Shown piece after piece: positions 2,783 to 39,269 of a stretch of DNA of 39,269 nt. Origin of the DNA: Bacillota bacterium (GTDB lineage Bacteria > Bacillota > Dehalobacteriia > UBA4068 > UBA4997); NCBI GenBank assembly GCA_021769035.1, contig JAETTP010000020.1:1-39269 (forward strand), read 5' to 3'. The notes under the pieces are model-generated. The model saw nothing but the letters and a program-made list of their open reading frames with translations, ran no database searches and had not been told where the DNA came from. The position numbers and the translations under genes were made by a program. Within the stretch, counting starts at the first letter, position 1, and every line of letters begins with the position of its first letter.

Positions 2783-5579
2783 ATTGATTATCAGCGCGAT
2801 TGGCCCTTACGCGGACGAGCCGCTGGAGATTGATTTCAACCAATTTGCCGGCAAGGGGTTGTTTTTGATTTCCGGCGATACGGGGGCCGGCAAAACCACT
2901 ATTTTTGACGCAATTTGCTTTGCGCTTTATGGGGCGACCAGCGGCCAGTATCGGGATACCAAAAACCTGCGCAGTCAGTATGCCAGCCCTGGCACGACCA
3001 GCTACGTGGATTTTTATTTCAGCCACCAGGGGGAGGAATATCACATTTACCGGCAGCCGGGCTATCTGCGGCTTAAGCAGCGGGGCGAGGGCCTAATTGA
3101 AGAGAAAGAAAAGGCGGTGTTTTACCAAGGGACGGAGCCGCCGGTGGAGGGGCTTAATCAGGTGCGGGCGCGGGTGGAGGATTTACTGAAAATTAACTTC
3201 GACCAGTTTAAGCAGATTGCTATGATTGCCCAGGGCGAATTTTGGCGGCTGCTAAACGCCACCACCCCGGAGCGGACGGAAATATTGCGCACTATTTTTA
3301 TGACAGAGCGCTACCAGCGTTTGGAGCAATGCCTGCGGGAGCGGCGCAACGCCGGGCTGGCGGAAAAAAAACGGCTGGAAAACAGCGTGGTGCAGTACTT
3401 CAACGAGGCCGCGGCCGGCCCGCAAAGTGAGCTGGCAGAAGATTTGGTAGCCTTGCAGACACAGGCGGCGCAAAGTGGCAGCGCCTGGAATGTAGAGGCA
3501 ATGCTGGATTTGCTGCAAAAGCTGATTGATGAGGACAAGGTGCAAGCGAAAATGATCCAGGCCGATTTGCAGGCGGCTAATCAGCTTTTGGACGAGCGAA
3601 AGAAAGCCTTGCACGAGGCGCAGACCAATAACCAACTGCTGGAGCGGTTGGCCGAGCACCAGAACAGGCAGCGGCAGTTGGCTGCGCAAAAAGAGGATAT
3701 GGAGGAGCGGGCCCGCTTGCTGCTACGTCAAAAAGCGGCGTTGCGGGAGGTGCAGCCGGCCTATCAGCGTTGGCAGGAAGCGCAGGAACTGGTTGGTAAC
3801 ACAGCGGCGGCGATTGAGCGGCAAAAGTATTCTTTGGCGCAGGCGGAAGCGGCGCAGCGGCAAGCGACGGCGATTTTAGGGCCGGAGCAGTTGCAGCAGG
3901 CGGCGGCTTGGCTGGCGGAAAGCCAACACAAGCAGAAAGAATGGGGCCGGGTTGCCGGGGAGCTGAAAGAACTGTTGCAGCAGGTTATTCCGGCTTATAA
4001 CACCGCCAAAGGGAATTTGCAACAAAGGCAGCTGCATTTTCAGGCGGCGCAAGGTAAATATAATCAACTGGACGGAGAATATAAGCGGCAGGAGCAGATT
4101 TTGGAAAACTGTCGGGCGGGTATTTTGGCCCAAACGCTGGCGGTCGGTCAGCCCTGCCCGGTTTGCGGCTCCACCCAGCACCCCGGCCCGGCCCAGCTGC
4201 CGGCGGAGGCGGTGACGGAGGCGGATTTGGAGCGGAGCAAGGCCGCCTTGGAGCAGGCGCGGCAGACCAAGGAAAAGCTGCTGACGGAGGCGGAAAAGGC
4301 CAAGGGGATTTTGCAGAAGCAGGGCGAGCAGCTGAAACAGCAGGTGTTAAATGCGCTGGCCGAGGTCGGCCAGGCCCAGCCTGAAGAGGCGGCCAATGGG
4401 GAGAACCTTACGGCCCGGTTGCAGCAGGCGGCCCAGAAAATTAACGCCGAAATTCAGGCGGAACAGCAGCAACAGCAGCAGCTGGGCCAAAAGTGCCTGG
4501 CTTATATTGAGGCGGCTCAGCAGAAGAAGCCCTCGGCGCGGCCCGGCAGCGTTAAGCAGGCGATTGAGCTGGCCCAGCAGGCGGCAGCCGCGGTGCAGGC
4601 TAGCCAGGCTGAGCTGGCCGGCAGCTTAAAAACCTTGCAGGAAAATCTGAACAATCAGCAGGCGGAGGCGGCAAAATTGCAAGCCCAATTTGCAGTGGCT
4701 CTGCAAGAAAAGGAATTTGCGGACGAGGCGGAATTTAAAAGTCTGCTGACCACAGAAGCGGCAATCGGCCGGCAGGAGGAGCAAATCAATCAATATCGGC
4801 AGGCGGTGCAGACCAATCGGGAGCAGCTGGCCCAGGCGGCAGAGGACGCCAAAGGGCGCGCTTTGGTTGACGAGGCGGCTTTGCTGCGGCAGGTGCAGGA
4901 ACAGGCCGGGCAGGCGGCTAAATTGCAGGAGGAAAACAGTCTGTTTAAGGCGCGTTTGGCTCAAAACGGCCGCCTGCGGCAGAAAATTGCGGAGCAGGAA
5001 ACGCCGCTGGCCGCAGCTAACCGGGAAAGTGAGCTTTGCAGCCGGCTTTACAACCTAATCAGCGGCAACGTCAGCGAAAAAACTAAAATCACCTTTGAGC
5101 AGTATATTCAGGCGGCCGGCTTTGATAATATTATTGCGGCGGCCAACCGGCGGCTGCTGCCGATGAGCGACGGCCAGTTTGAGCTGTTCCGCCGGCAGGA
5201 GGCGGGCAACAAGCGCAGCAAGGCCGGCCTGGATTTGGAGGTGCAGGACAACTTCACCGGGCAGCGGCGGCCTGTCGGCAACCTTTCCGGCGGGGAGAGC
5301 TTTAAGGCTTCTTTAAGCCTGGCTTTGGGCCTTTCCGACACAGTGGCCGGCGATTTGGGCGGCGTGCAGATGGACGTGCTGTTTGTGGACGAGGGCTTTG
5401 GCACGCTGGACCGCAAGTCGATTGAAAACGCGCTGGAAATTCTGCTTAGCTTATCCGGCGCCAACAAGCTGGTGGGGATTATCAGCCACCGGGAGGAGCT
5501 GGTGGAGAGTATCCCGCAGCAAATCCGGGTGCGCAAATCCAAAAGGGGCAGCAGCATTGAGATTGATACGGGCTTTTAA
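2769..5579 (+). CDS. sbcC: exonuclease SbcC (Rad50-type ATPase subunit)
   Basis: This 936-aa SMC-like ATPase pairs with SbcD. Walker A is GDTGAGKT (residues 36-43). Two long Gln/Ala-rich coiled-coil arms flank a zinc hook, CPVC (about 463-466), which joins two molecules. The ABC signature LSGGES (about 839) and Walker B VLFVDEGFGTLD (about 875) follow at the C terminus. The longer frame can be read from 2700, but ATG 2769 is preferred: it gives the family's MKPIKLIISAIGPY opening and has GGAGAGG 11 nt upstream, inside sbcD. The 14-nt overlap with sbcD indicates coupled translation. The arms are extremely Gln/Ala-rich, which is usual for coiled coils. Confidence 0.95.
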   Translation: MKPIKLIISAIGPYADEPLEIDFNQFAGKGLFLISGDTGAGKTTIFDAICFALYGATSGQYRDTKNLRSQYASPGTTSYVDFYFSHQGEEYHIYRQPGYLRLKQRGEGLIEEKEKAVFYQGTEPPVEGLNQVRARVEDLLKINFDQFKQIAMIAQGEFWRLLNATTPERTEILRTIFMTERYQRLEQCLRERRNAGLAEKKRLENSVVQYFNEAAAGPQSELAEDLVALQTQAAQSGSAWNVEAMLDLLQKLIDEDKVQAKMIQADLQAANQLLDERKKALHEAQTNNQLLERLAEHQNRQRQLAAQKEDMEERARLLLRQKAALREVQPAYQRWQEAQELVGNTAAAIERQKYSLAQAEAAQRQATAILGPEQLQQAAAWLAESQHKQKEWGRVAGELKELLQQVIPAYNTAKGNLQQRQLHFQAAQGKYNQLDGEYKRQEQILENCRAGILAQTLAVGQPCPVCGSTQHPGPAQLPAEAVTEADLERSKAALEQARQTKEKLLTEAEKAKGILQKQGEQLKQQVLNALAEVGQAQPEEAANGENLTARLQQAAQKINAEIQAEQQQQQQLGQKCLAYIEAAQQKKPSARPGSVKQAIELAQQAAAAVQASQAELAGSLKTLQENLNNQQAEAAKLQAQFAVALQEKEFADEAEFKSLLTTEAAIGRQEEQINQYRQAVQTNREQLAQAAEDAKGRALVDEAALLRQVQEQAGQAAKLQEENSLFKARLAQNGRLRQKIAEQETPLAAANRESELCSRLYNLISGNVSEKTKITFEQYIQAAGFDNIIAAANRRLLPMSDGQFELFRRQEAGNKRSKAGLDLEVQDNFTGQRRPVGNLSGGESFKASLSLALGLSDTVAGDLGGVQMDVLFVDEGFGTLDRKSIENALEILLSLSGANKLVGIISHREELVESIPQQIRVRKSKRGSSIEIDTGF

Positions 5580-5595
5580 ATCCAAAAATAGCCGC

Positions 5596-5624
5596 TTGAC
5601 ATTTGGCTGTGGATTTTATATAAT
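5596..5624 (+). promoter_or_regulatory. perfect SigA promoter for antisense RNA, module 1
   Basis: TTGACA (5596-5601), 17 bp and TATAAT (5619-5624) have no ORF of any size behind them. The transcript would run head-on into the small ORF on the minus strand. Confidence 0.85.
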
Positions 5625-5630
5625 ATAAAT

Positions 5631-5721
5631 GAAAAGAGCCAACAGCTTTTTAAGCGGTTAGCCCTCAGCAGTTATTTAGAAAATAACCGCCGCTCTGTGG
5701 AATTTGGGGCGGTTATTTTTT
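5631..5721 (+). ncRNA. putative antitoxin antisense RNA, module 1 (about 90 nt)
   Basis: The RNA would start about 7 nt after the -10 box and end at a hairpin, AATAACCGCC (5682-5691) against GGCGGTTATT (5708-5717), followed by T5. It is complementary to the last codons and 3' UTR of the 27-codon ORF on the other strand. Its 5' part carries GCGGTTAGCCCTCAG (5654-5668), recurring near-identically in the small ORF's own leader. Expression and function are inferred from layout. Confidence 0.65.
5682..5721. terminator. shared bidirectional hairpin, module 1
   Basis: The 10-bp stem AATAACCGCC/GGCGGTTATT has T5 on the plus side and A/T-rich sequence ending in TTTTCT on the minus side. It would end both the antisense RNA and the small-ORF mRNA. 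Confidence 0.7.
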
Positions 5722-5796
5722 ATTGCGAAAGTTTAAAAGTAACCCTGCAAAATCTACTAACAAAATTAAAAGTGTTAAAACTTCTAATGTTGTCAT
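5713..5796 (-). CDS. 27-aa hydrophobic peptide, putative holin-like type I toxin
   Basis: ATG at 5796 follows a perfect SD (AAGGAGGTGA, 7 nt spacing). The peptide begins MTTLEVLTLLILLVDFAGLL and ends LNFRNKK: one short membrane segment with a basic tail. This is the form of the small 'holin-like' type I toxins of Bacillota, whose B. subtilis relatives (TxpA, BsrG, BsrE) also open with M(S/T)xxxxLxxM-type sequences. The mRNA leader is about 120 nt, contains TAGTCCTCAG preceded by GCGGT, and has a small hairpin (CACTTA/TAAGTG) just before the SD. A convergent RNA overlaps its 3' end. The gene lies between sbcC and glnS. Toxicity is inferred; the peptide is new to me. Confidence 0.7.
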   Translation of the reverse strand: MTTLEVLTLLILLVDFAGLLLNFRNKK

Positions 5797-5922
5797 AGAA
5801 TCACCTCCTTAGACACTTATGTAAGTGATAAGAAGGCTTAGCCCTCTCTCACTCCTCCTTTACATCGAGAATTTGACTGAGGACTAACCGCCGTTTGAAA
5901 GAGTCAGCTCTTTCCAGCTTTT

Positions 5923-5951
5923 ATTTTAGCATTTTTTGTTGAAAAAAGCAA
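5923..5951 (-). promoter_or_regulatory. promoter of the module 1 small ORF
   Basis: On the minus strand TTGCTT (5946-5951), 17 bp and TAAAAT (5923-5928). The -35 box lies within the T-run side of the glnS terminator hairpin. Confidence 0.55.
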
Positions 5952-28555: not shown

Positions 28556-31500
28556 TTAATCAGCCCGCACTACAGTTTTACGATAACGTGAGCCGCCGCC
28601 GATGGCGGTTTTTGCTTCATTGGGCAGTTCACGATTTGTTCTTTCTTCAGGTTCAATCGTTTTTGGCGTGGTGACAACAACTGTAATTGTGTCGGACACA
28701 TTACCAATCGTGGCCTTAACCGTGATAGTTTTAGCTGTTTCATTGTCAGCAACAGTTAAAAGTCCGTCGTCACTAATTGTTGTGCCAGATTTCTTGGTGG
28801 AAGTAATCGTCCATTTAATCTGGTCTTTGTTGGTTGCATTGCTTGGGGTGACCGTAGCTTTGATTTGTGCAGTGTCGCCCTTTTCAACGCTTGATGCGCC
28901 GGAAAGCTTAATTGCGGTTGCAGGCACATTCAAGCTGTTGTTTGCAGCCGGAAGCTGGGTTGTAGTCTGGCTGTTGTTACTTGCCTTTGTGCTTTCGTTG
29001 CGCAAACTGAAACTTGTTGCGCTAGGCGTTTGTTCTGCCGGTTTCTTTACTGTTACCGTAAGGGTATTTGTGTTGCTTAAATCTTTTAATGCTCCATTAT
29101 TATCTATTTGAGCGCTAGCAATGGTAGCTTTAACTGTAATTTTCTTGCTCTCAGCTTCATCGCTAGCAACAGTTAAAAGTCCGGCATTGCTTATTTTCGT
29201 ATTAGCATTTAGGGCAGTACCACTAATTGTCCAGGTAATCTTATCTTTGCTAGTTGCATCGTTAGGAGTAATATTTGGACTGATTTGTAAAGTATCGCCT
29301 GGGGCAACTGTTAGGTTGGTTGTAGTTCCGTTAGGGCCTGAAAGAGTAAATGCTGTTACGGGTTTGAACTCATTAACAGTTATTTTTACTTGATCCTTTT
29401 CCGCTATTTCAACACCATTTACGGAAGCCGTAACATTGATTGTTAAATCAGTGGGGAAATCAGTTGGAATTGTTAATACGCCTTTTGCATCTATTTCTGG
29501 CGATTTGCTGTCGGCAGAAATTGCCTTGTTAATCTCTTCAATATTAGCAATCTTCCATTCAACAGTTCCATAGTCAGTAGCTGATTTGTCTGTGGTGAAA
29601 GTAACCTTTTGTCCTTGATAATAGGTATTATTACCCAATGGGCTTTCAGTGCTTGGTTTAATATAAGCAATTTCACCTAAGGCAACTGTAATATCCTGAG
29701 GCTTTGAAGTGACGTTCACCAGAGCATTGTTCTTTACATCCAGCGCAGCGTTAGCTAAAGTTGCGGTTACTGAAATATTATTGGCTGTTTCTTTTGGGCC
29801 GATGCGCAGCTCGCCGGTTGTGGAGTTAATGCTAGTCGTGGTATCTGTGGGTTTATTATCACCATCTATTGCCCAGGTGACTGTGTATCCTTTGGGCTCT
29901 ACGGTGAGCGTAACGGAACCATTAACCTTTGGATTGCTGGGCGCCGTAATTTTAATGTTGTCTGCTGAAACTGGCGTGAATTTAGCTACCTTTATGGTAT
30001 AGGTTTCTTCCTGCTTAGTTGCGTTGTTTGTAGCAGTTATAGTTATGCTGTCTTTGGCAAAATCCGCTGGGATAGTGAAAGTAAACAGCTGTTTTGTTTC
30101 ATCGTATGCTTCATCGATGATGTCATTGGAATCAACGTCCCAATCGATTTTATTTTGCGTCAATATCGATTTGTCCATTGTGAAGCTGACCTTTTGGCCG
30201 GTGTAGTAAGTATCGCTGCTGGCCAGCGGCGCGGTTTTGTGCTCAATGCTGCCGATTGGGGCAACGGCCACAACGATTTCAAAATCTTGCGATTTATCTT
30301 TTCCGTTTAGCAGATCGCCATTCTCTACTGTGGCTCGTACTTTATATGTTCCAGCGCCGTAAACGGTAAGCTTGCTGCCGTCCAATCTAACGATGTTTTG
30401 GTCAGGGGAGCCGACTAAGCTCCAGGTTACTGTTTTAAATGTTGCATTGTCTGGCGTCACAACGGTTTCCTTGGCTAAGTCAATGTCCAGTTGGAGAATT
30501 CCGCCCGTCATTGAATAGTTTAAATTCTTTTTATCTATTTTATCAACCGAAACAAAATCTTCCTTAGCAATTACAATAGCGCGATAAGTGCTGGGGTTTA
30601 GTCCCTGTTCGTTTTGTTTGTTTACCACTTCAACATCTATGCTGTTTATTCTTTCGGAAAGATCTTTTGGAATTTTCAATGTTGCAATCAAGCTTTGCTT
30701 ATCAACCGTAAGCAGGCCATTTATTTCGGTGTCAGTCATAAAACGGCCCAATTCGTCAACGTTTCTGATTGACCAATTCAATTTATCCTTGTATTGGCCC
30801 ACAATTTTAGAATCCAAATCAAGCTCAATGGTTTGCCCGCGATAGTACTTATCTTGACTTGGTTCCACGATAATATCGCCCATTAAGGAGGCCTGAACAT
30901 TGATGATTATTTGTTGTTCGTAGTCCTTGGTGCCGTCCTCTTTGCCGTTAACAACCGTGGCCTTAAGGATAATTCGGCCTGGTTGTTTGGGGGAAAGCTT
31001 GGGCGGATTGCCGGTTAAGCCTGCCGTTTTGATAGCTGCTTCTGTAGCATCAACCAACTCCCATTTAATGTTGGTGTAGGTGGGCGTAGCGTTTGGTTTG
31101 CTTGCCGGGGGCAGAACCTGGGCGCTTAATGTGAAGTCGGTGCCGGCATAGGCGATATAAGTGTTGCCGTCTTTATCGGTTTTATCCGGCATCAAATTAG
31201 TGTTAGTCAGTTCAATATGGTCCACCGGGCAGTACGGAGCCTCAATCTTAATATTGAAAGATTTGGTCAGGCTGCTGCCGTCGGCTTTGGCGTTGGGCAG
31301 GGTGGCCGTCAGGGTGACGGTGCCTCTTTCTTTCAAAATAAGTTTGGTGTAATCACTGTTAAACTCAGCGCCGGTGCCTTTCAGGCTCCAGTTTATTTTT
31401 CCGTCCTTAGCGGTTGCGTTGGAGGGCTTCACGATTACCGGGGTTAGGAGAATCGAATTTTCCGTGTCGTCACGCAATGTGTAGGTGGATTGAATGTTGA

Positions 31501-38670: not shown

Positions 38671-38840
38671 GCGCATAGGCGGAGTGCGCGGCAAAAGTCG
38701 CGGTTTGTTTGGCACGGTTCCTATCGCCAACCACTCCGCCGCCTCCCCCCATTGCCTGCTGGCTGTAGCCGAAAACAGCAACGCGCTTTGGGCTGAAAAG
38801 CCAACACAACCGGTTAGGGCTTAGCTGTGTGAGCAAAAAC
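38671..38840. other. G+C-rich structured block in A+T-rich surroundings
   Basis: From 38567 to 39034 no convincing gene is seen. Within it, 38671-38840 is markedly G+C-rich compared with both flanks. GGCGGAGTG (38678-38686) and CACTCCGCC (38732-38740) form a perfect 9-bp inverted repeat. A 65-codon frame on the minus strand (38836-38639) contains a Gly5 run but has no good ribosome site. It may be an intergenic repeat element, a structured RNA or a gene remnant. Confidence 0.4.
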
Positions 38841-38864
38841 CGCGGATTTTAACAAACGGCGAAA

Positions 38865-38908
38865 AACAAGCCTACTTCCTGATTGGGGCAGGGAGGTAGG
38901 CTTGTTGG
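38865..38908 (-). terminator. minus-strand hairpin terminator past module 2
   Basis: AACAAGCCTACTTCCT (38865-38880) pairs with AGGGAGGTAGGCTTGTT (38890-38906). On the minus strand it is followed by T5, so it would stop transcripts reading through module 2 from the right. Confidence 0.7.
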
Positions 38909-38932
38909 CGGAAATAAATTAAGTTGCATATC

Positions 38933-38961
38933 TTGACAAAATTGATTGCATAGGTTAAAAT
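38933..38961 (+). promoter_or_regulatory. promoter for antisense RNA, module 2
   Basis: TTGACA (38933-38938), 17-bp spacer, TAAAAT (38956-38961). Confidence 0.8.
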
Positions 38962-38967
38962 ATAAAT

Positions 38968-39050
38968 AGTAAGGCACCACAGATAAGCGGTTAGCCTAAG
39001 TGGAAATTTTTATTAACAAAATCGTCACTGTGGCTTAGTGGCGATTTTTT
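38968..39050 (+). ncRNA. putative antitoxin antisense RNA, module 2 (about 80 nt)
   Basis: The RNA starts about 7 nt after the -10 box, carries GCGGTTAGCC (38987-38996), and ends at AATCGTCACT (39020-39029) paired with AGTGGCGATT (39037-39046) then T4. It overlaps the last five codons of the opposing small ORF. The arrangement is the same as in module 1. Confidence 0.62.
39019..39050. terminator. shared hairpin, module 2
   Basis: AATCGTCACT/AGTGGCGATT with one G-U pair and a 7-nt loop; T-run on the plus strand. On the minus strand T is fewer, and the stronger stop at 38865-38908 lies beyond. Confidence 0.7.
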
Positions 39051-39118
39051 CTATGTGTAAGTCGTATCTCAATACTAATCGTAAAACGACCAATATGAAA
39101 AGTCAATCTTACTGGCAT
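39035..39118 (-). CDS. 27-aa basic amphipathic peptide of module 2
   Basis: ATG 39118 follows AAAGGGGGTGAGG. The peptide begins MPVRLTFHIGRFTISIEIRL and ends THRKNRH: alternating hydrophobic residues and a basic tail rather than a classical membrane helix. It has exactly the same length (27 codons), orientation, convergent RNA and GCGGTTAGCC repeats as module 1. The leader can fold ACCCC onto the GGGGT of its SD. By analogy it is a type I toxin-like gene, but the peptide itself is unlike the known hydrophobic toxins, so an unrelated regulatory peptide is possible. Confidence 0.6.
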   Translation of the reverse strand: MPVRLTFHIGRFTISIEIRLTHRKNRH

Positions 39119-39170
39119 AGTGCCTCACCCCCTTTCGTTCTTAATGGGGTTTGTTGGCTAACCGCCTACC

Positions 39171-39199
39171 GTTTTAAGTGAACACTTAGCGATTTGCAA
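39171..39199 (-). promoter_or_regulatory. promoter of the module 2 small ORF
   Basis: On the minus strand TTGCAA (39194-39199), 17 bp, TAAAAC (39171-39176), giving a leader of about 45 nt. The last 70 bases of the window hold no gene I can support; CACTTAGC (about 39183) and GCTTAGTG (about 39230) form a loose inverted repeat. Confidence 0.55.
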
Positions 39200-39269
39200 G
39201 CCTGAGCATAGCGAAAGGCGAAGCAAGAGCTTAGTGTGAACAAATATCGCAGGTGTAATTTATAACGAG

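Follow-up and report, generated by a model that had tools for sequence, protein, structure and literature searches.

Is the very short open reading frame found at the edge of a bacterial contig the cargo of an RNA-controlled module and, if so, what sort of cargo can it be? The window explored here (the whole stretch of 39,269 nucleotides) has near its right end, on the minus strand, a frame of 27 codons followed by TAA (39118..39035) that encodes MPVRLTFHIGRFTISIEIRLTHRKNRH. The original prediction saw in it a further case of the layout of module 1 (minus strand, 5570..5930, with a cargo beginning with MTTLEVLTLLILLVDFAGLLLNFRNK), where a conserved RNA chassis would carry another peptide, perhaps a new toxin class. 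The frame, the promoter motif, the hairpin (39018-39048) and the inverted repeat were all recovered at the positions that it gave, and the layout is that of module 1, save for one mismatch in the second arm of the latter. The inverted repeat, GCGGTTAGCC, stands at 38987-38996 on the plus strand and at 39156-39165 on the minus strand. The window contains this 10-mer three times, where 0.17 occurrences would be expected; genome-wide, the bare word is hardly above its reversed control (21 versus 17). Being about as common as its reversal, the word does not count alone: the evidence lies in pairing and position.

A selected peptide and its predicted fold

The peptide frame is under purifying selection. 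It is kept in some 30 copies, and dN/dS, computed over the codons of the hydrophobic core, is 0.186 in a subfamily of 14 copies, 0.211 in one of 6 and 0.097 in one of 8 (a fourth subfamily, with two copies only, gives an uninformative 0.43). There is an excess of changes at codon position 3, with p values of 0.0004 when the FHIG and RITLRIG forms are pooled and 0.006 for the RISF form, obtained by permuting columns, a procedure that ignores relatedness. The control of frame preservation and Ka/Ks that had been called for therefore yields about 30 intact copies, with ratios between 0.10 and 0.21 in the three subfamilies of 6 to 14 copies, rather than a conserved RNA only; an ordinary chance frame is likewise excluded by dN/dS. 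The basic tail of the peptide is under weaker constraint and, in several copies, is read in a different frame, since the same DNA also makes a terminator.

AlphaFold2, provided with 31 aligned members, confidently predicts a beta-hairpin, with strands at residues 2-9 and 12-19 and a pLDDT of 88-89 over residues 1-20. The claim that the peptide lacks a classical membrane helix agrees with this model, from which a single transmembrane helix of the Hol_Tox type is absent, and none of the beta peptides matches the Pfam family Hol_Tox (PF16935). Looking for described families, no match was obtained in PADLOC, NCBIfam or the PDB, and Rfam returned nothing at the gathering threshold, while PHROGs contributed a weak match only, to phrog_37754 (E 0.0022), of unknown function. 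A literature search covering mostly open-access papers retrieved no type I toxin described as a beta-hairpin.

The messenger, its paired ends and its predicted antisense RNA

Just before the frame, the Shine-Dalgarno (SD) region AAAGGGGGTGAGG (39123..39135, minus strand) is enclosed by a local hairpin, ACCCC..GGGGT (39127..39150, minus strand), which has equivalents in 31 of 32 copies. In every copy that keeps its leader the SD is located within a small hairpin, the stems of which vary, with loops mostly of the GNRA type. Further out, the two ends of the mRNA face each other, with a 5' arm (AACGGTAGGCGGTTAGCC) at 39156..39174 and a 3' arm (GGCTAACCGC..GTGGTGCC) at 38973..38996, both read on the minus strand. 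This 5'-3' long-distance pairing is well supported. In the 19 copies that have full arms, 97.2% of the cells are paired and 12 of 19 pairs show double, compensatory changes; pairing drops to 33-40% once the partner arm is slid. Covariation reaches 0.574, against 0.299 after shuffling and about 0.1 after sliding, for arms that were hand-picked as pairing segments and shuffles that do not control for relatedness. There exist eleven or so distinct outer arms, each one matching the partner in its copy; an unguided search for duplexes, in which partners were permuted, yields -40.7 kcal/mol for own arms and -33.5 kcal/mol for foreign ones. Wobble pairs of this stem amount to 46 G.U versus 17 A.C when read on the mRNA strand, and the full mRNA of a clean copy (C51) adopts a closed fold, with a z score of -9.6.

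On the opposite strand, TTGACA-N17-TAAAAT (38933..38961, plus strand, with TTGACA at 38933-38938 and TAAAAT at 38956-38961) is a promoter by consensus match, as are all the promoters mentioned here. Of the convergent promoter initially proposed, the plus-strand motif stands, but it would drive an antisense RNA, whereas the promoter of the mRNA is located beyond the contig end. This antisense RNA, an antitoxin candidate predicted from promoter and terminator, would span 38968..39050 (plus strand), with approximate ends. The hairpin thought to be shared by both transcripts had to be reassigned. Named T1 here (39018..39050, plus strand), it overlaps the 3' end of the frame, folds at -14.8 kcal/mol on the antisense strand versus -6.5 on the sense strand, and displays 38 G.U versus 1 A.C wobble pairs when read on the antisense strand. 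It is seen on that strand in 32 of 32 copies, the sense strand being weaker or devoid of the following T residues. A bidirectional terminator at the end of the frame is thus ruled out, as the stem is strong solely on the antisense strand; T1 is an intrinsic terminator of the antisense RNA, with a T-run encoded by Lys and Arg codons of the frame. Antisense promoter and strand-specific terminator are conserved in the DNA of the copies. For the mRNA, folding points to another terminator, T2 (38859..38906, minus strand), situated past the antisense promoter; its energy is -8.7 kcal/mol or lower in 23 of 32 copies, and the antisense -35 box is often in its loop. Most likely, the mRNA reads through T1 up to T2, so that it would be complementary to the antisense RNA over the full length of the latter.

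A plausible course of events would be as follows. The minus-strand mRNA would encode an amphipathic beta-hairpin peptide of 24-30 residues, the presumed toxin, and it would be silenced twice, with the SD held within the small hairpin and the two ends joined in the long stem. The convergent antisense RNA, about 85-100 nt long, would start in the 3' arm and end at T1 within the last codons; fully complementary to the 3' end of the mRNA, it would vie with the 5' arm for pairing and target the mRNA to RNase III, in the way that RatA acts on txpA. Opening or closing of the SD by the antisense RNA was discarded, for it has no effect in the fold model: SD accessibility is the same when the 3' end is left out of the fold, nor does it change when pairing of the antisense target is blocked in silico. 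Because the SD is unaffected by masking of this target, a translational switch is not predicted and degradation of the duplex is likelier, and control would have to operate through degradation or through kinetics.

The leader of the window copy has a peculiarity of its own. An interspersed hairpin repeat, at 39177..39269 and running on past the contig end, lies inside it between the mRNA promoter and the frame, and has taken the place of the outer portion of the 5' arm; the genome has it at about 21 places, frequently where there is no module. This repeat (GTTCACACTAAGC..GCTAAGTGTTCAC, about 65 nt), seen besides the window in C59, C26, C18 and others, often follows terminators, and it is present in several module leaders. 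The last 103 bases of the window contig also terminate two other contigs, C101 and C8 (loci L101 and L102). Either may stand in for the sequence past the contig end; they have, in order, the promoter TTGACA..TTAAAAT, a hairpin whose loop is AGAGTGGAC, an outer arm, and GCACC..GGGTGC followed by a T-run. There, a ATCGCAGG..CCTGCGAT pairing competes with the GCACC..GGGTGC hairpin, which makes a leader terminator with its antiterminator possible. This possible leader terminator with the mutually exclusive ATCGCAGG/CCTGCGAT pairing, again between mRNA promoter and frame, is also visible in G006 C4 and in C25 near position 31100. As for the 5'-terminal hairpin, it comes just after the mRNA promoter, with a varying stem and the conserved loop AGAGTGGAC, in the leaders of C51, C60, C90, C68 and C111b, and G007 C18 has a similar one with loop AGAGAGGAC.

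Copies, relatives and other cargos of the chassis

The genome, that of a gut bacterium and uncultured Peptococcaceae relative, contains about 20 copies of the module: a peptide search finds 16 places and a profile search 21, including two weak remnants. In each of three sister species (G001, G006 and G007) there are 3-6 copies. The peptides form five subfamilies, FHIG, RITLRIG, RISFDIWRFHVVI, IRITLHLGF and a single NYTFSI form. Some copies are decaying, C25b with an ACG start, C21 and C91 as remnants. A copy without leader in G001 (C16:93937-94017) is immediately preceded by DNA that looks, by eye, like the C-terminus of a tyrosine recombinase. A flank shared by the window (38671-38935) and G006 (C4:5-266) is placed on the antisense-promoter side in the former and on the mRNA-promoter side in the latter, as if the module had been inverted; this flank is itself repeated.

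Matching the window peptide against phages and plasmids with tblastn gave no match, and a viral-contig scan with A2 found no relative. Distant members surfaced only via a relative in G243, a genome from another family and class added by a phylum sample, where the same chassis encodes MRITLHIFGYTVTIIIKRDNRH. The G243 sequence led to MT835905.1 (human faeces), to Vescimonas fastidiosa pMM35_01 and to gut viral contigs, all of which have the arms, the SD hairpin and the terminator of the chassis. Scanning viral contigs with the leader pattern gave 32 matches, 27 of them having downstream an arm matching at 8 positions out of 10 or more, against none of 13 with the reversed motif (Fisher p 1.2e-7); a few of these 27 loci (L114, L133 and L137, for example) resemble chance rather than modules.

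Cargos on the viral contigs comprise beta peptides, Hol_Tox peptides above the Pfam cut-off (PF16935, E 6.9e-10 to 1.4e-11) and peptides ending in 'AC'. The leaders of beta and Hol_Tox modules are about 91-93% identical over 45-47 nt, an inflated figure in that the scan was seeded on the motif, which makes up 18 of these bases. One Hol_Tox peptide of the chassis weakly resembles the type I toxin PepG1, at a score below threshold, and some score below the cut-off against the ComI model. The third cargo (L111, L112, L115, L117, L118, L120, L139, L144, L146, L150) would consist, judged by eye, of one helix with a C-terminus in 'AC' (KAC or NAC); those of its peptides that were scanned match nothing in Pfam or NCBIfam. 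'KAC' and Hol_Tox queries found nothing close in plasmids or phages. The window's own genome also combines this chassis with another cargo, MSFMEVATFLLVLIAFADVILTHCKKK, Hol_Tox-like by eye and without a Pfam match. The idea of a conserved chassis with differing cargo is therefore borne out, and on a wider scale than proposed, since nearly identical leaders precede beta peptides or, on viral contigs, Hol_Tox peptides and the 'AC'-ending family. We lean, with some reserve, towards one RNA control chassis distributed across gut Bacillota and mobile elements and carrying at least three structurally unrelated peptides (a Hol_Tox helix, an 'AC'-ending helix and a beta-hairpin), of which the beta-hairpin would be a first class of short type I toxins that is not helical.

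Rival readings and known systems

What, then, is the function of the module? We think it probable that this multicopy module of the chromosome is toxin-antitoxin-like, of type I, with a toxin that belongs to a new beta-hairpin class. From sequence we infer the novelty of the toxin class, as well as transcription, antisense control, toxicity and a target that is probably the membrane. The same RNA-controlled module might instead produce a regulator or helper that binds the membrane or a protein partner, in the manner of ComI, a competence inhibitor related to Hol_Tox. The absence of a membrane helix, the sub-cut-off ComI scores and the diversity of the copies, with their five subfamilies, would fit such a peptide. 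Yet the tight double control (SD hairpin and closed mRNA, with the antisense RNA), the multicopy spread and the decaying copies are typical of toxin loci, and elsewhere the chassis carries Hol_Tox peptides, so that we hold a regulator to be rather unlikely.

It is quite improbable that the ensemble is a mobile palindromic DNA element of the MITE type, with the paired arms as terminal inverted repeats and the frame as a passenger. To be sure, the inverted repeats take in the promoters, and many copies are intergenic, with copies also at contig ends. However, arms differ between copies while matching within each, unlike repeats that are read by one transposase; the wobble pairs counted above favour the mRNA strand, the frame is under strong purifying selection, and the repeat with which the contig ends is another element, an interspersed one. 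That the module makes an antimicrobial peptide, secreted or released, under antisense control seems more improbable still: the product is cationic, amphipathic and predicted to be a beta-hairpin, but it has no signal or leader peptide, most members are without cysteines, and genes for export, immunity or maturation were not noticed beside the window copy.

If the toxin-antitoxin reading is true, a beta-hairpin is housed in the RNA of Hol_Tox, and it is the housing, not the fold of the peptide, that would define the system. Paired arms, an SD hairpin and an antisense terminator in the last codons would then offer a sequence and structure handle on unannotated modules, making toxin exchange within a chassis open to testing.

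Several known systems share part of this organization. As predicted here, TxpA/RatA and BsrG/SR4 of Bacillus subtilis have a convergent antisense RNA overlapping the 3' end of the toxin mRNA; RatA acts through RNase III-dependent degradation, and SR4 also through SD sequestration (PMC4147584). Their toxins are larger (59 residues for TxpA), whereas here the mRNA has a long, covarying end stem and the antisense terminator is inside the frame. Fst/RNAII, the par locus of pAD1, likewise has convergent RNAs, an antisense RNA ending at a terminator adjacent to the frame and repeats in both 5' regions. In pAD1 the repeats are direct, making both RNAs complementary (PMC4147584); here they are inverted, leading to end-to-end pairing of the mRNA, and the peptides are unrelated by Pfam. 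In AapA/IsoA and hok/sok the full-length mRNA is closed by a 5'-3' long-distance interaction and has local SD hairpins (PMC6733600), as covariation and folding indicate here, with the difference that the SD is masked there by the 3' end and here by a local hairpin. AapA1 is alpha-helical, and so, according to a review of 2021 (PMC8309996), are the type I toxins acting on membranes that it brings together, where a structure is known or predicted; characterised toxins of this kind have a transmembrane helix, which the peptide studied here does not. A locus of Listeria pLI100, which bears the annotation 'putative holin-like toxin', likewise seems by eye to have mRNA ends that match, without the GCGGTTAGCC word. 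The Hol_Tox (PF16935) loci of viral contigs share with the window module the GCGGTTAGCC arm, the SD hairpin and the matching 3' arm, while the peptide is a membrane helix there and, here, a predicted beta-hairpin outside PF16935.
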